Positions 9,116 through 29,765 of a stretch of DNA of 43,554 nucleotides are shown here, in pieces. The DNA is from Alphaproteobacteria bacterium. GTDB taxonomy: Bacteria; Pseudomonadota; Alphaproteobacteria; ATCC43930; CGMCC-115725. The notes beneath the pieces are model-generated. The model made no database searches and was not told the DNA's origin. It saw only the letters and a list, made by a program, of their open reading frames with translations. Each line of letters starts with the position of its first letter. Positions within the stretch are counted from its first letter, which is position 1. The DNA is taken from the NCBI GenBank assembly GCA_030041385.1, contig JASHNY010000196.1:1-43554 (forward strand), given 5' to 3'. Position numbers and translations under genes: made by a program.

Positions 9116-10756
9116 ATGGCCGGCCCTTACGACACCGGGCTCGAGAAGAACGCGGCAAATTTCGTGCCGCTGTCGCCGATCGGGTTCCTGCTGCGCACTG
9201 CCACGATCTATCCGAACCGCACTGCGGTCGTCGAGCCTGCCCCGGCGAAAGCCGGGGGCAGTCGCCGCTATACCTGGCGACAGGTACTCGAACGCTGCCG
9301 GCGCTTGGCCGGCGCGCTGACGGCGCACGGGGTCGGCCGCGGTGATACGGTCGCCCTGATGGCTCCCAACGTGCCGGAGGCGTTCGAGGCGCATTTCGGC
9401 GTGCCGATGGCCGGGGCGGTATTGAATGCGCTGAACATCCGCCTCGACGCCGAGACGATCGCCTTCATCCTCAAGCACGGTGAGGCCAAGGTGCTGCTCA
9501 CCGACACCGAATTCGCCCCGGTGATCGGCCGCGCCCTGGCCCTGCTGGACAGGAAGCCGCTGGTTATCGACATCGCCGACCCGGCCGGACCCGGCGGCGA
9601 GCGGCTCGGGACCCTCGATTACGACGCGCTGATCGCCGGCGGCGACCCCGATTTCGCCCCGGTCCGGCCGCGCGACGAATGGGACGCGATCGCGCTGAAC
9701 TACACCTCGGGCACGACCGGCAACCCCAAGGGCGTCGTCTACCACCACCGCGGCACCTATCTGAATGCGATCGGCAACATCCTGGTATGGGGCCTGCGGC
9801 AGCACCCGGTCTATCTGTGGACCCTGCCGATGTTCCACTGCAACGGCTGGTGCTTTCCGTGGACCGTGACGGCGCTCGCGGGGACCCATGTGTGCCTGCG
9901 CCGGGTCGAGGCGCCGGCGATCTACGATGCGATCGAGCGCGAGGGCGTCACCCACCTGTGCGGCGCGCCGGTGGTGATGAACGCGCTGTTGAACGCGCGT
10001 GGCCCCAACAATCCCTTGCCCCGTCCGGTCGAGATGATGACCGCCGGTTCGGCGCCGCCGGCCGCGGTGATCCAGGGCATGGAAAAGCTCGGCTTCAAGA
10101 TCACCCATGTCTATGGGCTGACCGAGGTGTTCGGCCCGTCGGTGATCTGCGCCTGGCACGACGAATGGGATGCGCTCGACGCCGACGCTCGCGCCCGCCT
10201 GAAGGCGCGGCAGGGCGTCGCCTACCCGGTACTCGAAGGGCTGACGGTCGCGGACCCGGCGACGCTGGACCCTGTGCCGGCCGACGGCGAGACGATGGGC
10301 GAGATCTTCATGCGCGGCAATATCGTCATGAAGGGATATCTGAAGAACCCGCAGGCCACCGAGGAAGCATTTGCCGGGGGCTGGTTCCACACCGGCGACC
10401 TCGGCGTCATGCACGAAGACGGCTATATCGAGATCAAGGACCGCTCGAAAGACATCATCATTTCGGGCGGCGAGAACATCTCGACGATCGAGGTCGAGGA
10501 TGTGCTCTACCGGCACCCCGCCGTGCTCGAAGCCGCGATCGTCGCCCGGCCCGACAAGCAATGGGGCGAAATCCCCTGCGCCTTTGTCACGTTGAAAGAC
10601 GGCGCCAGCGCCAGCGCGGCCGACATCATCGCCTTTTGCCGCGACCGCCTCGCTCATTTCAAGGCGCCGCGCCACGTGATCTTCGGGCCGCTGCCGAAAA
10701 CCTCGACCGGCAAGATCCAGAAGTTCGTGCTCAGGGACCGAGCGAAGGTCGAGTGA
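9116..10756 (+). CDS. Acyl-CoA synthetase (AMP-dependent ligase, DmdB/medium-chain type)
   Basis: 546 residues. It activates a carboxylic acid to its CoA thioester through an acyl-adenylate. The P-loop YTSGTTGNPKGVVYHH, the MFHCNGWCFPW segment, the A5 motif VYGLTEVFG, the hinge KDRSKDIIISGGENIS and the catalytic lysine motif PKTSTGKIQKFVLR are all visible. MFHCNGW is common in medium/long-chain and 3-methylthiopropionate ligases (FadD3/DmdB-like). It follows the GFA gene by 2 bp and converges on kup. The substrate is not deducible. Confidence 0.88.
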   Translation: MAGPYDTGLEKNAANFVPLSPIGFLLRTATIYPNRTAVVEPAPAKAGGSRRYTWRQVLERCRRLAGALTAHGVGRGDTVALMAPNVPEAFEAHFGVPMAGAVLNALNIRLDAETIAFILKHGEAKVLLTDTEFAPVIGRALALLDRKPLVIDIADPAGPGGERLGTLDYDALIAGGDPDFAPVRPRDEWDAIALNYTSGTTGNPKGVVYHHRGTYLNAIGNILVWGLRQHPVYLWTLPMFHCNGWCFPWTVTALAGTHVCLRRVEAPAIYDAIEREGVTHLCGAPVVMNALLNARGPNNPLPRPVEMMTAGSAPPAAVIQGMEKLGFKITHVYGLTEVFGPSVICAWHDEWDALDADARARLKARQGVAYPVLEGLTVADPATLDPVPADGETMGEIFMRGNIVMKGYLKNPQATEEAFAGGWFHTGDLGVMHEDGYIEIKDRSKDIIISGGENISTIEVEDVLYRHPAVLEAAIVARPDKQWGEIPCAFVTLKDGASASAADIIAFCRDRLAHFKAPRHVIFGPLPKTSTGKIQKFVLRDRAKVE

Positions 10757-25222: not shown

Positions 25223-25237
25223 GCATTGCTGCAATGC
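25223..25237. promoter_or_regulatory. Palindrome upstream of bfd, site 2
   Basis: GCATTGC-T-GCAATGC, a perfect 7-1-7 palindrome centred 28 bp from site 1, in the gap between bfd and the AhpD-like gene. It could serve either gene. Confidence 0.4.
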
Positions 25238-25347
25238 GGCGAGCCCCCGTCGCCGCCACTCTCGCTTTAAGCGCTTCGCAACCCGGCCGGCCGGCCGCTA
25301 TGCTCCGTACCCGGGCGAACGATCAACCTTCTGGAGGAGACACCAAG

Positions 25348-25905
25348 ATGGCCGAGACGCCGACCTTTGGCCGCTACGCTGAGATCCCCTACGACCAGAT
25401 GACCCCGGAACAGCAGGAAGGCTACCGTTCGCTGATCGAGACTCGCGGCCGGCTGCCTGGCCCAAACAAGATTTACGTGCACAACCCCAAGCTGGTGAAG
25501 GTGATGGGGCCGCTCGGCGCCTATTTCCGCACCGGCTATTCGCTCAGCGAGCGCGAGCGCGAGATCGCCGTCATCATCACCAACGCCCATTTCCACTCGG
25601 CCTATCCGACCAACGCGCATGAGCGCGCCGGCAAGGCCGCCGGATTGCCGGCCGACAAGGTCGAAGCGATGCTGGAAGGCCGCTCGACCTCGTTCGACGA
25701 CGAGCGCGAGCAGGTCGTCTACGAGATGGCGACAACGCTGATCAATTCGCGCTGGGTGTCGAAAGGCCTCTACGACCGCGCAGTAAAGGCGCTCGGCCAT
25801 GAGGGCATCACCGACGTGACCTGCCTGATGGGCTTCTACAGCAGCGTGTCGATGACCCTCGCCTTCTACGACGTGCCTGCCGGCGCCGAGGGGTTGGCAA
25901 GGTAG
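25348..25905 (+). CDS. AhpD-like / carboxymuconolactone decarboxylase family protein
   Basis: 185 residues. The all-helical fold is recognisable from LSEREREIAVIITNAHFHSAYPTNAHERAG, the CMD/AhpD core segment, and from DEREQVVYEMATTLINSRWVSKGLYDRAVKALG. The redox CxxC pair of true AhpD is absent (SAYPTNAH at that place), so peroxidase activity is unlikely. Some CMD-family proteins act in catabolic gene clusters. GGAGGAGACACCAAG precedes the ATG; the 114-base upstream extension is dropped. It is followed by a palindromic repeat and the convergent duplicated-domain gene. Confidence 0.82.
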   Translation: MAETPTFGRYAEIPYDQMTPEQQEGYRSLIETRGRLPGPNKIYVHNPKLVKVMGPLGAYFRTGYSLSEREREIAVIITNAHFHSAYPTNAHERAGKAAGLPADKVEAMLEGRSTSFDDEREQVVYEMATTLINSRWVSKGLYDRAVKALGHEGITDVTCLMGFYSSVSMTLAFYDVPAGAEGLAR

Positions 25906-25943
25906 AACGTTCCGTCGCCCCTTTTGACTCTACTTTCCTGCCT

Positions 25944-26029
25944 GTCATTGCGAGCACAGCGAAGCAATCTCGGGCCGAAGGAGTCTCAGCCCATCGAGAT
26001 TGCTTCGTCGCTCCGCTCCTCGCAATGAC
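25944..26029. repeat. REP-like palindromic repeat
   Basis: An imperfect 86 bp hairpin: the left arm begins GTCATTGCGAGC and ends AAGCAATCTCG, the right arm is its reverse complement with a 6 bp insertion, ending CGCAATGAC. Such GTCATTGCGAG...GAAGCAATC palindromes occur dispersed in many bacterial genomes. It lies between two convergent genes and may terminate transcription of both. Confidence 0.75.
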
Positions 26030-26052
26030 GGTGCAGATTGAGTGGAAGCGGT

Positions 26053-26889
26053 CTAACCGCCCGACCCCGCCGCCGCCGTCAGGATATCGACGAAATCCTT
26101 AAGCCGCATCCCGGCCCGCCCGCCGGCCCTGATTGCCGCCTGGTTGACATGCGACAGCACGCCGTCGTGGTAAAGCGCACGTGAGTCCCCGATTGGGGCG
26201 CTGTCGGCCGAAACCGCGCCCGCCGGAATGCCGCGCCGGTCGAGATCCGGCAAGCGGGCGATGCCGGCGCCATCCATGCCGACCCCGGCGTCGCTGAAGA
26301 ACACGGCGCAGACGTCAGGGGCGACCGCGTTGTCGGGGCGGCCGCCGGACAATGCGGCGTGCGACGCGGTGACGACGATCTGGCCGGCATCCTCCGGCTC
26401 GATCATGCCGACCGAATCGGCGCAGACGAGCCGCGGCTCGCCCGGATTGTCGCGCAGGACATGGCGGTTGCCCTCGGTGATCGCGGACGGCATCTGCGTC
26501 GGCACGGGTGCCGCGCGCATCCGCTCGGCGCAGTCGCGCACGCTCTGGCCCGGCCGGCAGCCGAGTGCGGCGGCGATGCGGTTGACATGGCTGATCGTGC
26601 CGTGCGCCAGCATGTGGTCGCCGTCGCCGATGTGGCAGGTCTGCGCGTCGGCGGTCGCCGCGGGAACATCGATCCGGTCGAGGAATTCGAGGCCGATGAT
26701 CCCGGCGTTGTCCTTGCCGATGCCGGCATCGTTCATGACGACCCCGCGCACCCGCCATTTCGCCGCGTTGTAGGCGTTGTACCGGCCCCCGTAGGAGCCC
26801 GAGACGACGACATGCCCGTGATGCTCCGCGCGGCAGGCCGAGCAGCTCGGCACGGTCATGATCTGCACGGTTTCATCGGGTGTGTTCAT
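26053..26889 (-). CDS. Uncharacterised protein made of two tandem copies of one domain
   Basis: 278 residues; I do not recognise a named family. An N-terminal CSAC (residues 16-19) precedes repeat A (about 26-124) and repeat B (about 170-270). The copies align without a gap across residues 54-103 and 200-249 at a constant offset of 146: NDAGIGKDNAGI against SDAGVGMDGAGI, LEFLDRIDVPA against LPDLDRRGIPA, IGD against IGD, and ISHVN against LSHVN. No signal peptide or membrane helix is seen. The ATG at 26889 has GGAG upstream. It is divergent from the Rieske oxygenase gene with 119 bp between them, so shared control is plausible. Enzyme or binding role is unknown. Confidence 0.8.
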   Translation of the reverse strand: MNTPDETVQIMTVPSCSACRAEHHGHVVVSGSYGGRYNAYNAAKWRVRGVVMNDAGIGKDNAGIIGLEFLDRIDVPAATADAQTCHIGDGDHMLAHGTISHVNRIAAALGCRPGQSVRDCAERMRAAPVPTQMPSAITEGNRHVLRDNPGEPRLVCADSVGMIEPEDAGQIVVTASHAALSGGRPDNAVAPDVCAVFFSDAGVGMDGAGIARLPDLDRRGIPAGAVSADSAPIGDSRALYHDGVLSHVNQAAIRAGGRAGMRLKDFVDILTAAAGSGG

Positions 26890-27008: not shown

Positions 27009-28307
27009 ATGGTCACCAGAGCCCCGTATCTGAAGGCGCGGTACAGCGGCTACCACCATCGCCATGTCCCACAAGAAGACACCGAGCTGACCCATGTCGG
27101 GCCGGACACGCCGTGCGGCGAGTACATGCGCCGGTTCTGGCAGCCGATCTGCTATTCCGACGAGCTGAAGGACCTGCCGATCAAGGTCAAGATTCTTGGC
27201 GAGGAACTGGTCGCCTTTCGCGACGGCAGCGGCGAGGTCGGCCTCCTCGAACTGCATTGCCCGCACCGCGGCACCTCGCTCGAATTCGGGCTGGTCGGCG
27301 CCAAGGGCATCCGCTGCTGCTATCACGGCTGGCTGTTCGATTGCGACGGCACGATCCTCGAAACTCCGGGCGAGCCGGCCCACAGCAAATTGAAGGACCG
27401 GCTGTTTCACGGCGCCTATCCGGTGCACGAGGCGCACGGGCTGATCTTTGCCTATTTGGGCCCGCCCGAGAAGATGCCGGCGTTCCCGACCTACGACAGT
27501 TTCGTCCGCCCCGGCTATCGCGTAATCCCCGGCCAGAAATACATCTATCCCTGCAACTGGCTGCAGATCCTCGAAAACACGATGGACGCGATCCACACTT
27601 CGTTCCTGCACACGATCGTCAGCGGCGCCGTGTTCACCGACGAGTTCGGCGTCCTGCCCGAGTTGGAATTCATGGAAACCCCGGTCGGGATCATCTACAT
27701 CGCGACCCGCCGCATCGGCGACAACATCTGGTCGCGCTCGGTCGAGAACGTCTTGCCGACCCTGCAGCAGGTCGCCCCGATCTGGGAAACCGGTCAGCAC
27801 GAGATCGCCTTCAGCGGGCCGATGATGAGCCGCTGGATTGTGCCGATCGACGACACCAACTCGATGCAGATCGAGTTGCGCCACGTCAGCGAGACCCCGG
27901 GCATCGTCACGCCGGACTGGTGGGCCGACCGCAGCGTCATGCTGCCCGGCCAGATGCCGCCGGACACCTACGAGGAAGCCCAGCGGCGCCCGCAGGATTT
28001 CGAGGCGCAGGTGTCGCAGCGGCCGATCGCGATCCACGGCATGGAGCATCTCGGCACTACCGACCGCGGCATCACGATGTTCCGCAACCAGATCCGCCGC
28101 GGCGTCAAGGCGGTCAAGGCCGGGGACGACCCTGTCGGGCTGTTCCATGACGAGGATGCCGTGATCCCGACCTATTGCAACAACACGGTCGTGCGCGTGC
28201 CGCCGGCGAAAACGCCAGAGCTGGACAAGAAACTGCTGCGCGAGACCGGACGGCGCCTTGCCGCGGGTTATCTGAAGGCGCCGCCGCTACTCGCCGCTGC
28301 CGAATAG
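27009..28307 (+). CDS. Rieske-type aromatic ring-hydroxylating oxygenase, alpha subunit
   Basis: 432 residues. The Rieske [2Fe-2S] site is C84-P-H86 with C103-x2-H106 (CPHRG and CCYHGW). The mononuclear iron site is D193, H196, H201 in ENTMDAIHTSFLH. The architecture resembles single-component-alpha enzymes such as phthalate 4,5-dioxygenase and vanillate demethylase oxygenases. The C-terminal part has no further motif I can name. A CAGGAGGCTTCG site precedes the ATG. No reductase or ferredoxin for electron supply lies in the window, so it must borrow one. Substrate unknown; aromatic or heteroaromatic acid is the family norm. Confidence 0.88.
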   Translation: MVTRAPYLKARYSGYHHRHVPQEDTELTHVGPDTPCGEYMRRFWQPICYSDELKDLPIKVKILGEELVAFRDGSGEVGLLELHCPHRGTSLEFGLVGAKGIRCCYHGWLFDCDGTILETPGEPAHSKLKDRLFHGAYPVHEAHGLIFAYLGPPEKMPAFPTYDSFVRPGYRVIPGQKYIYPCNWLQILENTMDAIHTSFLHTIVSGAVFTDEFGVLPELEFMETPVGIIYIATRRIGDNIWSRSVENVLPTLQQVAPIWETGQHEIAFSGPMMSRWIVPIDDTNSMQIELRHVSETPGIVTPDWWADRSVMLPGQMPPDTYEEAQRRPQDFEAQVSQRPIAIHGMEHLGTTDRGITMFRNQIRRGVKAVKAGDDPVGLFHDEDAVIPTYCNNTVVRVPPAKTPELDKKLLRETGRRLAAGYLKAPPLLAAAE

Positions 28308-28946: not shown

Positions 28947-29765
28947 ATGCTGATCGTCGATGCGCAGGTCCATATCTGGTCCGCCGGGCCGCCCACCAAC
29001 CAGATGCATCGCCAGGTGAATTCCTACAGCGCCGAGCAATGCATCAAGGAGATGGACGAGGCCGGGGTCAGCGCCGTACTGCTGCACCCGCCAGGCTGGG
29101 ATCCCAATTCCGGCAGAATCTCGGAAGAGGCGGCGGCCAGATACCCGAACCGCTTCGGCATCCTCGGCAATTTCCCGCTCGACAAGCCGGAAAGCCGCGA
29201 CCTGATCGCCGGGTGGAAGCAGCGGTCCGGCATGCTGGGCCTGCGGTTTGCCTTCACCCAGCCGCACCAGGCCAACTGGCTGACCGACGGCACAATGGAC
29301 TGGGTGTGGCCGGCCGCGGAGAAGGCGCAGATCCCGATCGCGCTGATGGCATCGAACCAGCTGCCGCTGGTCGGCCAGATTGCCGAGCGCCACCCCGGCC
29401 TCAAACTGATCCTCGACCACTACGCGCGCGTGCGCAACGCGATGGACGATGCCGCGCACGGTAACCAGGCGGCCCTGCTGGCACTCGCCAGACACCCCAA
29501 CATCGCAGTCAAATGCACCGGCGCGCCGGGAAATTCGAGCCAGCCCTACCCGTTCAGGAACATCCACAAATACACGCAGCAGATCGTCGAGACATTCGGG
29601 CCCGCGCGCAGCTTCTGGGGCACCGACATCACCCGCATGCCGTGCAGCTGGCGGCAATGCGTGACGATGTTCACCGAGGAGATGCCGTTTCTTAAGGGGC
29701 ACGACCTCGAACTGGTGATGGGTCGTGCGCTGTGCGACTGGCTCGGCTGGAAACTGCCCGGGTAA
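28947..29765 (+). CDS. Amidohydrolase family (Amidohydro_2) protein
   Basis: 272 residues with a TIM-barrel metal-dependent hydrolase fold. It begins MLIVDAQVHIW, matching the Amidohydro_2 start where the first His of HxH is lacking (D5, H9 visible). Later strands show LKLILDHYARV, IAVKCTG and FWGTDITRMPC. The family includes decarboxylases and hydrolases of aromatic and lactone substrates (ACMSD-like, 2-pyrone-4,6-dicarboxylate hydrolase-like). GGAGGGGAACCGCC precedes the ATG. It sits between the Rieske/secreted genes and the liv cluster, suggesting a catabolic step. The exact reaction is not deducible. Confidence 0.83.
   Translation: MLIVDAQVHIWSAGPPTNQMHRQVNSYSAEQCIKEMDEAGVSAVLLHPPGWDPNSGRISEEAAARYPNRFGILGNFPLDKPESRDLIAGWKQRSGMLGLRFAFTQPHQANWLTDGTMDWVWPAAEKAQIPIALMASNQLPLVGQIAERHPGLKLILDHYARVRNAMDDAAHGNQAALLALARHPNIAVKCTGAPGNSSQPYPFRNIHKYTQQIVETFGPARSFWGTDITRMPCSWRQCVTMFTEEMPFLKGHDLELVMGRALCDWLGWKLPG

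Follow-up and report, generated by a model that had tools for sequence, protein, structure and literature searches.

A fused tandem of two probable DUF1805-like domains from an alphaproteobacterium, predicted to act in hydroxy- and oxo-carboxylate catabolism

Introduction

The described family closest to the protein of this work is DUF1805 (PF08827, COG3377), whose solved member TA1206 (PDB 1QW2) is a single domain of 102 residues. In PMC9425974, DUF1805, COG3377, and PDB 1QW2 share one row, and the archaeal DUF1805 is listed there beside the gene of a tRNA methylase, Trm11, rather than beside a gene of catabolism. The open-access passages covered, those of PMC9425974 and PMC10050317 among them, gave no function for DUF1805. 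The second point of comparison is the 3-oxo-isoapionate pathway with OiaK (NF042436) and OiaX (NF042437). Genes similar to these two lie next to relatives of our protein in haloarchaea, Actinomycetota, and Stella, although they are neighbours of the tandem family and not its homologues, and their scores stay below the cut-offs.

The window, meaning the whole analysed stretch of 43,554 nucleotides (contig JASHNY010000196.1 of assembly GCA_030041385.1), carries on its reverse strand a gene for a 278-residue protein, which is present as a single copy in the host genome. In this work, we compare this protein with its relatives by repeat structure, predicted fold, conserved residues, distribution, and gene neighbourhood.

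Results and Discussion

Internal repeat and predicted structure

The gene and its two domain copies of about 120 residues each are located as follows.

26053..26889, reverse strand: tandem, probably DUF1805-like protein of 278 aa, ATG start, stop codon included
26506..26868, reverse strand: domain copy 1, residues 8-128
26068..26436, reverse strand: domain copy 2, residues 152-274

Two homologous alpha/beta domains, fused in tandem, make up the 278-residue protein. By comparing the protein with itself at offsets from 20 to 239, the best ungapped match was found at an offset of 146 (score of 145, residues 41-127 on 187-273), and the runner-up reached a score of 28. The halves 1-146 and 147-278 gave a local alignment score of 162, compared with 32 ± 5.9 and a maximum of 65 in 2000 shuffles. 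Furthermore, the half profiles built from 52 proteins matched each other in hhalign with P 100 and an E-value of 9.7e-42. The original prediction had proposed two tandem copies at this very offset from motifs that are all present in the sequence, and the self-alignment, the shuffles, the half-profile match, and the structure model confirm it. The opposite outcome, a known single-domain family with no internal symmetry in the predicted structure, did not occur. The proposed lack of gaps holds for the core from residue 41 onwards, and gaps of 4 and 2 residues are present N-terminal of this position.

The 52-row alignment was obtained by removing near-identical rows (91 to 52); all plasmid loci were left out, as were L022, L025, L026, and L071 (truncated), L027 and L028 (split), and L115 (short). 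The 59-row domain alignment consisted of the halves of 28 of these 52 proteins and three split or single genes. The whole-protein model based on the former had a pLDDT of 95.5 and a pTM of 0.91, and the model of copy 1 alone, based on the latter, had a pLDDT of 97.7 and a pTM of 0.92. In the whole model, the same five strands are found in both copies. Copy 2 differs from copy 1 in the helix after strand 2, which has only three residues, and in the helix following strand 3, which is broken into two pieces. One extra strand was modelled at residues 142-146.

Relation to DUF1805

The top VIA fold match of both models was 1QW2, with Z of 8.2, rmsd of 3.3, and 95 aligned residues for the whole model (next match at Z 5.6), and Z of 7.8, rmsd of 2.0, and 73 aligned residues for copy 1 (next at Z 5.5). 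In Foldseek, 1QW2 was ranked third for the whole model (E 0.19, probability 0.92) and first for copy 1 (E 0.026, probability 0.99), so both models point to the TA1206 fold with Foldseek E-values that are not significant. No match at E of 0.001 or better was obtained with either model in Foldseek against PDB, or in the BFVD fold search. The sequence search of PDB with the protein, with the whole and half alignments, and with L016 gave nothing significant. A VIA Z near 8 is not decisive by itself.

On the sequence side, PF08827 was the Pfam family best spread over the relatives, found at E ≤ 1 in 18 of 21 whole proteins (best 1.1e-7) and absent from L011, L034, and L036. Of the 64 profile positions, eight of the 18 matches spanned those from about 9 to at least 57. 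The curated cut-off of 29.5 bits was passed by four of the 21 (L006, 30.2; L015, 30.9; L016, 30.9; L033, 32.5), and the window protein stayed under it with 20.8 bits. Of the separate domains, 22 of 59 matched the profile (best E 1.7e-4). None of the 61 genomes searched match by match passed the cut-off.

The PF08827 matches together with the 1QW2 fold result make distant homology to DUF1805 likely, although not certain. AlphaFold was trained with PDB entries, so the sequence and fold evidence for DUF1805 are not fully independent. Unlike the solved member, the window protein is not a single domain of about 100 residues but has two fused copies, and it scores below the family cut-off. The statement of the original prediction that the domain has no family name therefore gives way to a probable diverged DUF1805-like domain; it stands insofar as DUF1805 itself has no assigned function and the protein is below the threshold of the family.

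The sequence evidence for DUF1805 calls for caution above all because of the IMS profile (PF00817) of Y-family polymerases, which matched 13 of the 21 members (best E 7.9e-8, L032) and passed its cut-off in four of them (L006, L015, L032, L033). In L032, the IMS score was even higher than that of DUF1805 (32.8 vs. 24.7 bits). These matches are 27-52 residues long, compared with 148 positions in the profile, and lie around I-S-x-x-N-x-x-A-x-x-x-G in either copy (for example, at residues 254-282 of L032); the window protein had no IMS match at E ≤ 1. The profile search of PDB listed DNA polymerase IV at E of 0.39 or worse, and both models had low fold matches to Y-family polymerase over 46-60 residues. 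Since the matches extend over at most 52 residues, a small part of the profile, kinship with Y-family polymerases was rejected and the IMS match is read as a local likeness. As IMS is also over its cut-off in 4/21 members, part of the DUF1805 signal stems from a short stretch to which unrelated profiles respond as well.

Conserved residues and a putative site

The conserved segments of the two copies are given below; counts refer to the 52 aligned relatives.

26779..26796, reverse strand: copy 1 SYGGRY, residues 32-37, end of strand 2 and loop; most relatives have SHGGxY, S32 in 52/52
26710..26733, reverse strand: copy 1 NDAGIGKD, residues 53-60, loop after strand 3
26623..26640, reverse strand: copy 1 TCHIGD, residues 84-89, loop after strand 4; R at 86 in 37/52
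26581..26592, reverse strand: copy 1 SHVN, residues 100-103; N103 in 52/52, His in 32/52
26416..26418, reverse strand: copy 2 D158, in 52/52
26353..26364, reverse strand: copy 2 SHAA, residues 176-179; S176 and H177 in 52/52
26272..26295, reverse strand: copy 2 SDAGVGMD, residues 199-206; D200 in 52/52
26254..26256, reverse strand: copy 2 R212, in 52/52
26185..26202, reverse strand: copy 2 SAPIGD, residues 230-235; R at 232 in 37/52
26143..26154, reverse strand: copy 2 SHVN, residues 246-249

Equivalent positions are strongly conserved in both copies. The pair S32/S176 is invariant, and the others were counted, for copy 1 and copy 2, respectively, as D54/D200 in 51 and 52 relatives, G58/G204 in 52 and 48, I87/I233 in 52 and 50, S100/S246 in 48 and 50, N103/N249 in 52 and 50, and D89/D235 in 49 and 38. 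In addition, D158, H177, and R212 are present in all 52 in copy 2 only, and G234 of copy 2 is also invariant. On the other hand, the His of SHVN is poorly kept (32/52 in copy 1 and 26/52 in copy 2). The earlier suggestion of two similar sites with conserved Asp, Gly, and His thus survives as regards the similar sites and a His at H177, but not as regards the His of SHVN.

In each domain, the conserved segments G-S-H-G-G, N-D-A-G-x-G, and S-A-R-I-G-D are predicted at the consecutive strands 2, 3, and 4 or immediately following them. The loops at these strands are the usual place of the substrate cleft in such folds, so the models would put a cleft there. The fusion would then yield a pseudo-dimer within a single chain, with two such clefts. 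Copy 2 keeps the stricter residue set (D158, S176, H177, D200, and R212).

The clade of the window protein, 11 of the 52 rows, departs from the other relatives at three positions. All 11 have Y33 together with H86 and lack R232, whereas the other 41 have H33 without exception, R86 in 37, and R232 in 37. We count this three-residue change as one inherited event, though it falls in both copies. A KdgD-like gene occurs in the locus in 7 of the 11 rows, directly upstream in four. The replacement of H33 by Y and of R86 by H and the loss of R232, together with the KdgD-like gene, suggest that the window clade has changed its substrate.

Distribution, architectures, and phylogeny

Relatives were found in 26 of 99 related genomes by the single-protein search, and in 13 plasmid records from haloarchaea, Rhodococcus, Rhizobium, Aminobacter, Ponticoccus, and Methylovirgula. 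In the genome_contigs scan, 368 stretches fitted the pattern, 293 encoded a relative, and 80 were kept; Actinomycetota, SAR324, Poribacteria, and Latescibacterota are among their sources. Genome draws contained a relative in 4/299 genomes of the phylum, in 47/385 of the alphaproteobacterial class, and in 6/296 of the phylum to which the Nonomuraea genome belongs. The tblastn search of phages with a 97-residue stretch of L016 gave no match.

The family occurs in three forms: the fused tandem, which is the commonest, the split pair of Stella, and one-domain genes. With at most 11 candidates scored per genome, two matches in one open frame were present in 40 of the 47 alphaproteobacterial genomes, one match in four (G523, G609, G612, G684), and two matches in different frames in three (G517, with an internal stop, G681, and G691). 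Four of the six genomes of the Nonomuraea phylum had the fused form (G393, G857, G942, G953), and one match in a short frame was found in G879 and G932. The one-domain proteins of G337, G523, G612, and G932 have 131-134 residues. In Stella vacuolata (G040), two one-domain genes with a 4-base overlap lie between an SDR and a DctP-like gene.

The Stella locus L265:3500-9451 holds OiaK-like, RuBisCO-like, and SDR genes next to the overlapping one-domain pair, a natural split of the tandem protein. In the actinomycetote G942 (L266:8868-9815 and 9825-10706), two fused tandem genes stand side by side, which amounts to four domains, and this pair is flanked on both sides by genes of cluster number 76.

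The tree of 73 domain rows separates first from second halves with three label changes, compared with a minimum of two and a shuffled mean of 26.8. The second-half part of the tree holds the one-domain genes close to its base, and the two Stella genes group with each other on weak support (81/49). Many forks are unresolved in this tree, and the Rhodococcus and Aminobacter rows, whose branches are long or deep, cluster away from the others. The simplest reading would be a single old duplication with a later fusion.

Gene neighbourhoods

The neighbours were counted in family-bearing loci of at least 5 kb (81 loci, 80 in the group count), which form 27 groups at 60% identity. These are raw counts with no random background and no p-value, based on single-linkage clusters of uncurated ORFs, some of which overlap the family gene, with one annotated representative per named cluster. 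The recurrent neighbours are TPP enzymes, SDRs, carboxylate transporters, and KdgD-like or OiaX/OiaK-like genes, and no partner gene was universal among the loci examined. The acetolactate-synthase-like TPP gene was present in 50 of 80 loci and 16 of 27 groups, in 27 of the 50 loci on the same strand with a gap of less than 60 bases (ORF overlaps included). The other neighbours, as loci/groups, were SDR (30/14), E1-beta (27/10), E1-alpha (23/11), IclR (22/7), TctC (16/3), DctM (12/8), KdgD-like (10/2), and FMN dehydrogenase (5/2).

In 7 of the 10 loci with a KdgD-like gene, it lies just upstream of the family gene on the same strand, no more than 41 bases away. The KdgD-like product passed NF002958 (380.7 bits, cut-off 278) and came just under the KdgD equivalog (370.0 bits, cut-off 373.95). 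In the Bosea locus of the window clade (L042), the order is 2-hydroxyacid dehydrogenase, enolase-superfamily, Fe-ADH, two unannotated genes, TctC, KdgD-like, and the tandem gene. RuBisCO-like and DUF1537-type kinase genes are found beside the tandem form in three haloarchaeal plasmids, beside a one-domain gene in Actinomycetota (L261), where the RuBisCO-like sequence falls into two ORFs, and, by BLAST likeness, beside the Stella split pair (L265). The best NCBIfam names in L036 and L261 were OiaX and OiaK, and no match reached its cut-off (504.5 and 445.5 vs. 700).

The forward-strand neighbours of the tandem gene in the window are the following.

27009..28307, forward strand: Rieske oxygenase with a LigXa-like C-terminal match, between the tandem gene and the amidohydrolase
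28947..29765, forward strand: Amidohydro_2 amidohydrolase

Among 115 loci (L002-L028, the eight plasmid loci L029-L036, and the 80 genome_contigs loci L037-L116), the amidohydrolase had a homologue in three, namely L002, L037, and, as a partial match of 51%, L084. L002 and L037, which are probably one genome, carry an amidohydrolase of 83% identity directly beside a 78% orthologue of the tandem gene. It was not found beside the relatives of 74% (L038) or 67% (L039), whose neighbours are of the alpha/beta-hydrolase type.

Just downstream of the tandem gene, positions 25234-25905 encode a protein weakly related to carboxymuconolactone decarboxylase or peroxidase (CMD, 15.6 bits vs. 23), with no homologue in the 115 loci. 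An intergenic palindromic repeat at 25938-26036 adjoins the 3' end of the tandem gene, and its perfect 13-nt arms are at 25960-25972 and 25995-26007. At E ≤ 0.001, the genome contains 45 matches to this repeat, among them single places hit on both strands, and the element thus belongs to a dispersed repeat family.

Proposed function and alternatives

We hypothesize that the protein is an enzyme of small hydroxy- or oxo-carboxylate catabolism of the acid-sugar type, where the word enzyme is based on context and conservation, and that it would be used in several different pathways. Alpha-hydroxy-beta-oxo acids are the compounds of acetolactate-synthase-like and OiaK/OiaX-like chemistry. The best guess would be that the tandem protein acts on such an acid as an isomerase, epimerase, or lyase, because its recurrent partners are similar to families that produce or consume these acids. 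The explanation as a whole, that is, a fused tandem, DUF1805-like, hydroxy-/oxo-carboxylate catabolic enzyme, has in our judgement about an even chance of being right.

The same neighbourhoods could also mean that the tandem protein serves the adjoining TPP enzymes as a regulatory subunit or as a partner without catalysis of its own. Some TPP enzyme is present in 17 of the 27 groups, and the acetolactate-synthase-like one is adjacent in 10, often on the same strand and with tiny gaps. However, 10 of the 27 groups have no TPP enzyme, none is found within 8 kb in the three annotated haloarchaeal loci or among the five window neighbours scanned, and site-like residues are kept over all 52 aligned relatives, so that we regard a subunit role as quite improbable. 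The original prediction had instead looked to the divergent Rieske oxygenase gene, 119 bases away in the window, as a member of the same pathway. The survey of relatives speaks against this, because a Rieske homologue was found in 0/115 loci (tblastn, E 1e-6), many of which are short, so that absence is weak evidence for any single locus, and because the closest relative (78%) has the amidohydrolase as its divergent neighbour instead. The direct neighbourhood of amidohydrolase and tandem gene in L002 and L037 indicates that the Rieske gene may be an insertion between the two in the window, and a pathway shared with it is hardly to be expected.

Two further alternatives concern the chemistry of the domain itself. 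A serine hydrolase (lactonase or esterase) would use S32/S176 of G-S-H-G-G as the nucleophile, like the nucleophile elbow of alpha/beta hydrolases. The Ser is invariant in both copies, and 5 of the 21 members gave weak matches to UPF0227, the YqiA-type esterases, over the short G-S-x-G-G segment and what follows it. Moreover, lactone chemistry suits acid-sugar pathways, and the nearest NCBIfam names of the window amidohydrolase are lactone hydrolases, far below cut-off. Yet every UPF0227 match is under its cut-off (best E 0.086), Abhydrolase_6 was matched by 6 of 59 domains with a best E of 0.01, and the first fold match is 1QW2 and not an alpha/beta hydrolase. A conserved triad His was not found in the alignment either; the only well-conserved His adjoins the Ser, and that of SHVN is the poorly kept one. 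A serine hydrolase is in our opinion a distinctly weak candidate, too. It is very unlikely that each half is a swivelling beta/beta/alpha domain akin to RraA-like aldolases, AcnX, or PEP-utilising enzymes, acting as a metal aldolase or similar. This idea drew on low-Z VIA matches to swivel-type domains, presumably PA and phosphohistidine swivel domains, and on a visual similarity to known motifs. The half profiles compared by hhalign with RraA (PF03737) gave P of 0.2-0.3, and with the AcnX swivel (PF01989) and PEP-utilizers (PF00391) P of 0.2-1.3, like the 17 unrelated controls (0.0-3.4), although the comparison profiles of 36, 12, and 29 sequences were shrunk to 106, 73, and 57 columns, respectively, which weakens the test. 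The relation to swivelling domains was thus not borne out.

A wider form of the preferred reading, a catabolic enzyme with DUF1805-like domains, can be formulated. In it, an unrecognised superfamily of enzymes for branched alpha-hydroxy-beta-oxo acids of the acetohydroxy-acid or 3-oxo-isoapionate type would have the DUF1805-like domains as its founding fold and would occur in both archaea and bacteria as single, split, and fused proteins, and the window clade would represent a substrate switch through concerted change at positions 33, 86, and 232. We offer this as a speculation that is unlikely to hold in full.

Conclusions

For a widespread hypothetical protein, present in 47 of the 385 alphaproteobacterial genomes drawn, this work provides a probable link to a family, describes three architectures that occur in nature, and lists a few metabolic contexts. 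If the link to DUF1805 holds, the protein would give a lead to what the DUF1805 fold might do, and this lead could be tested by ordinary enzymology.
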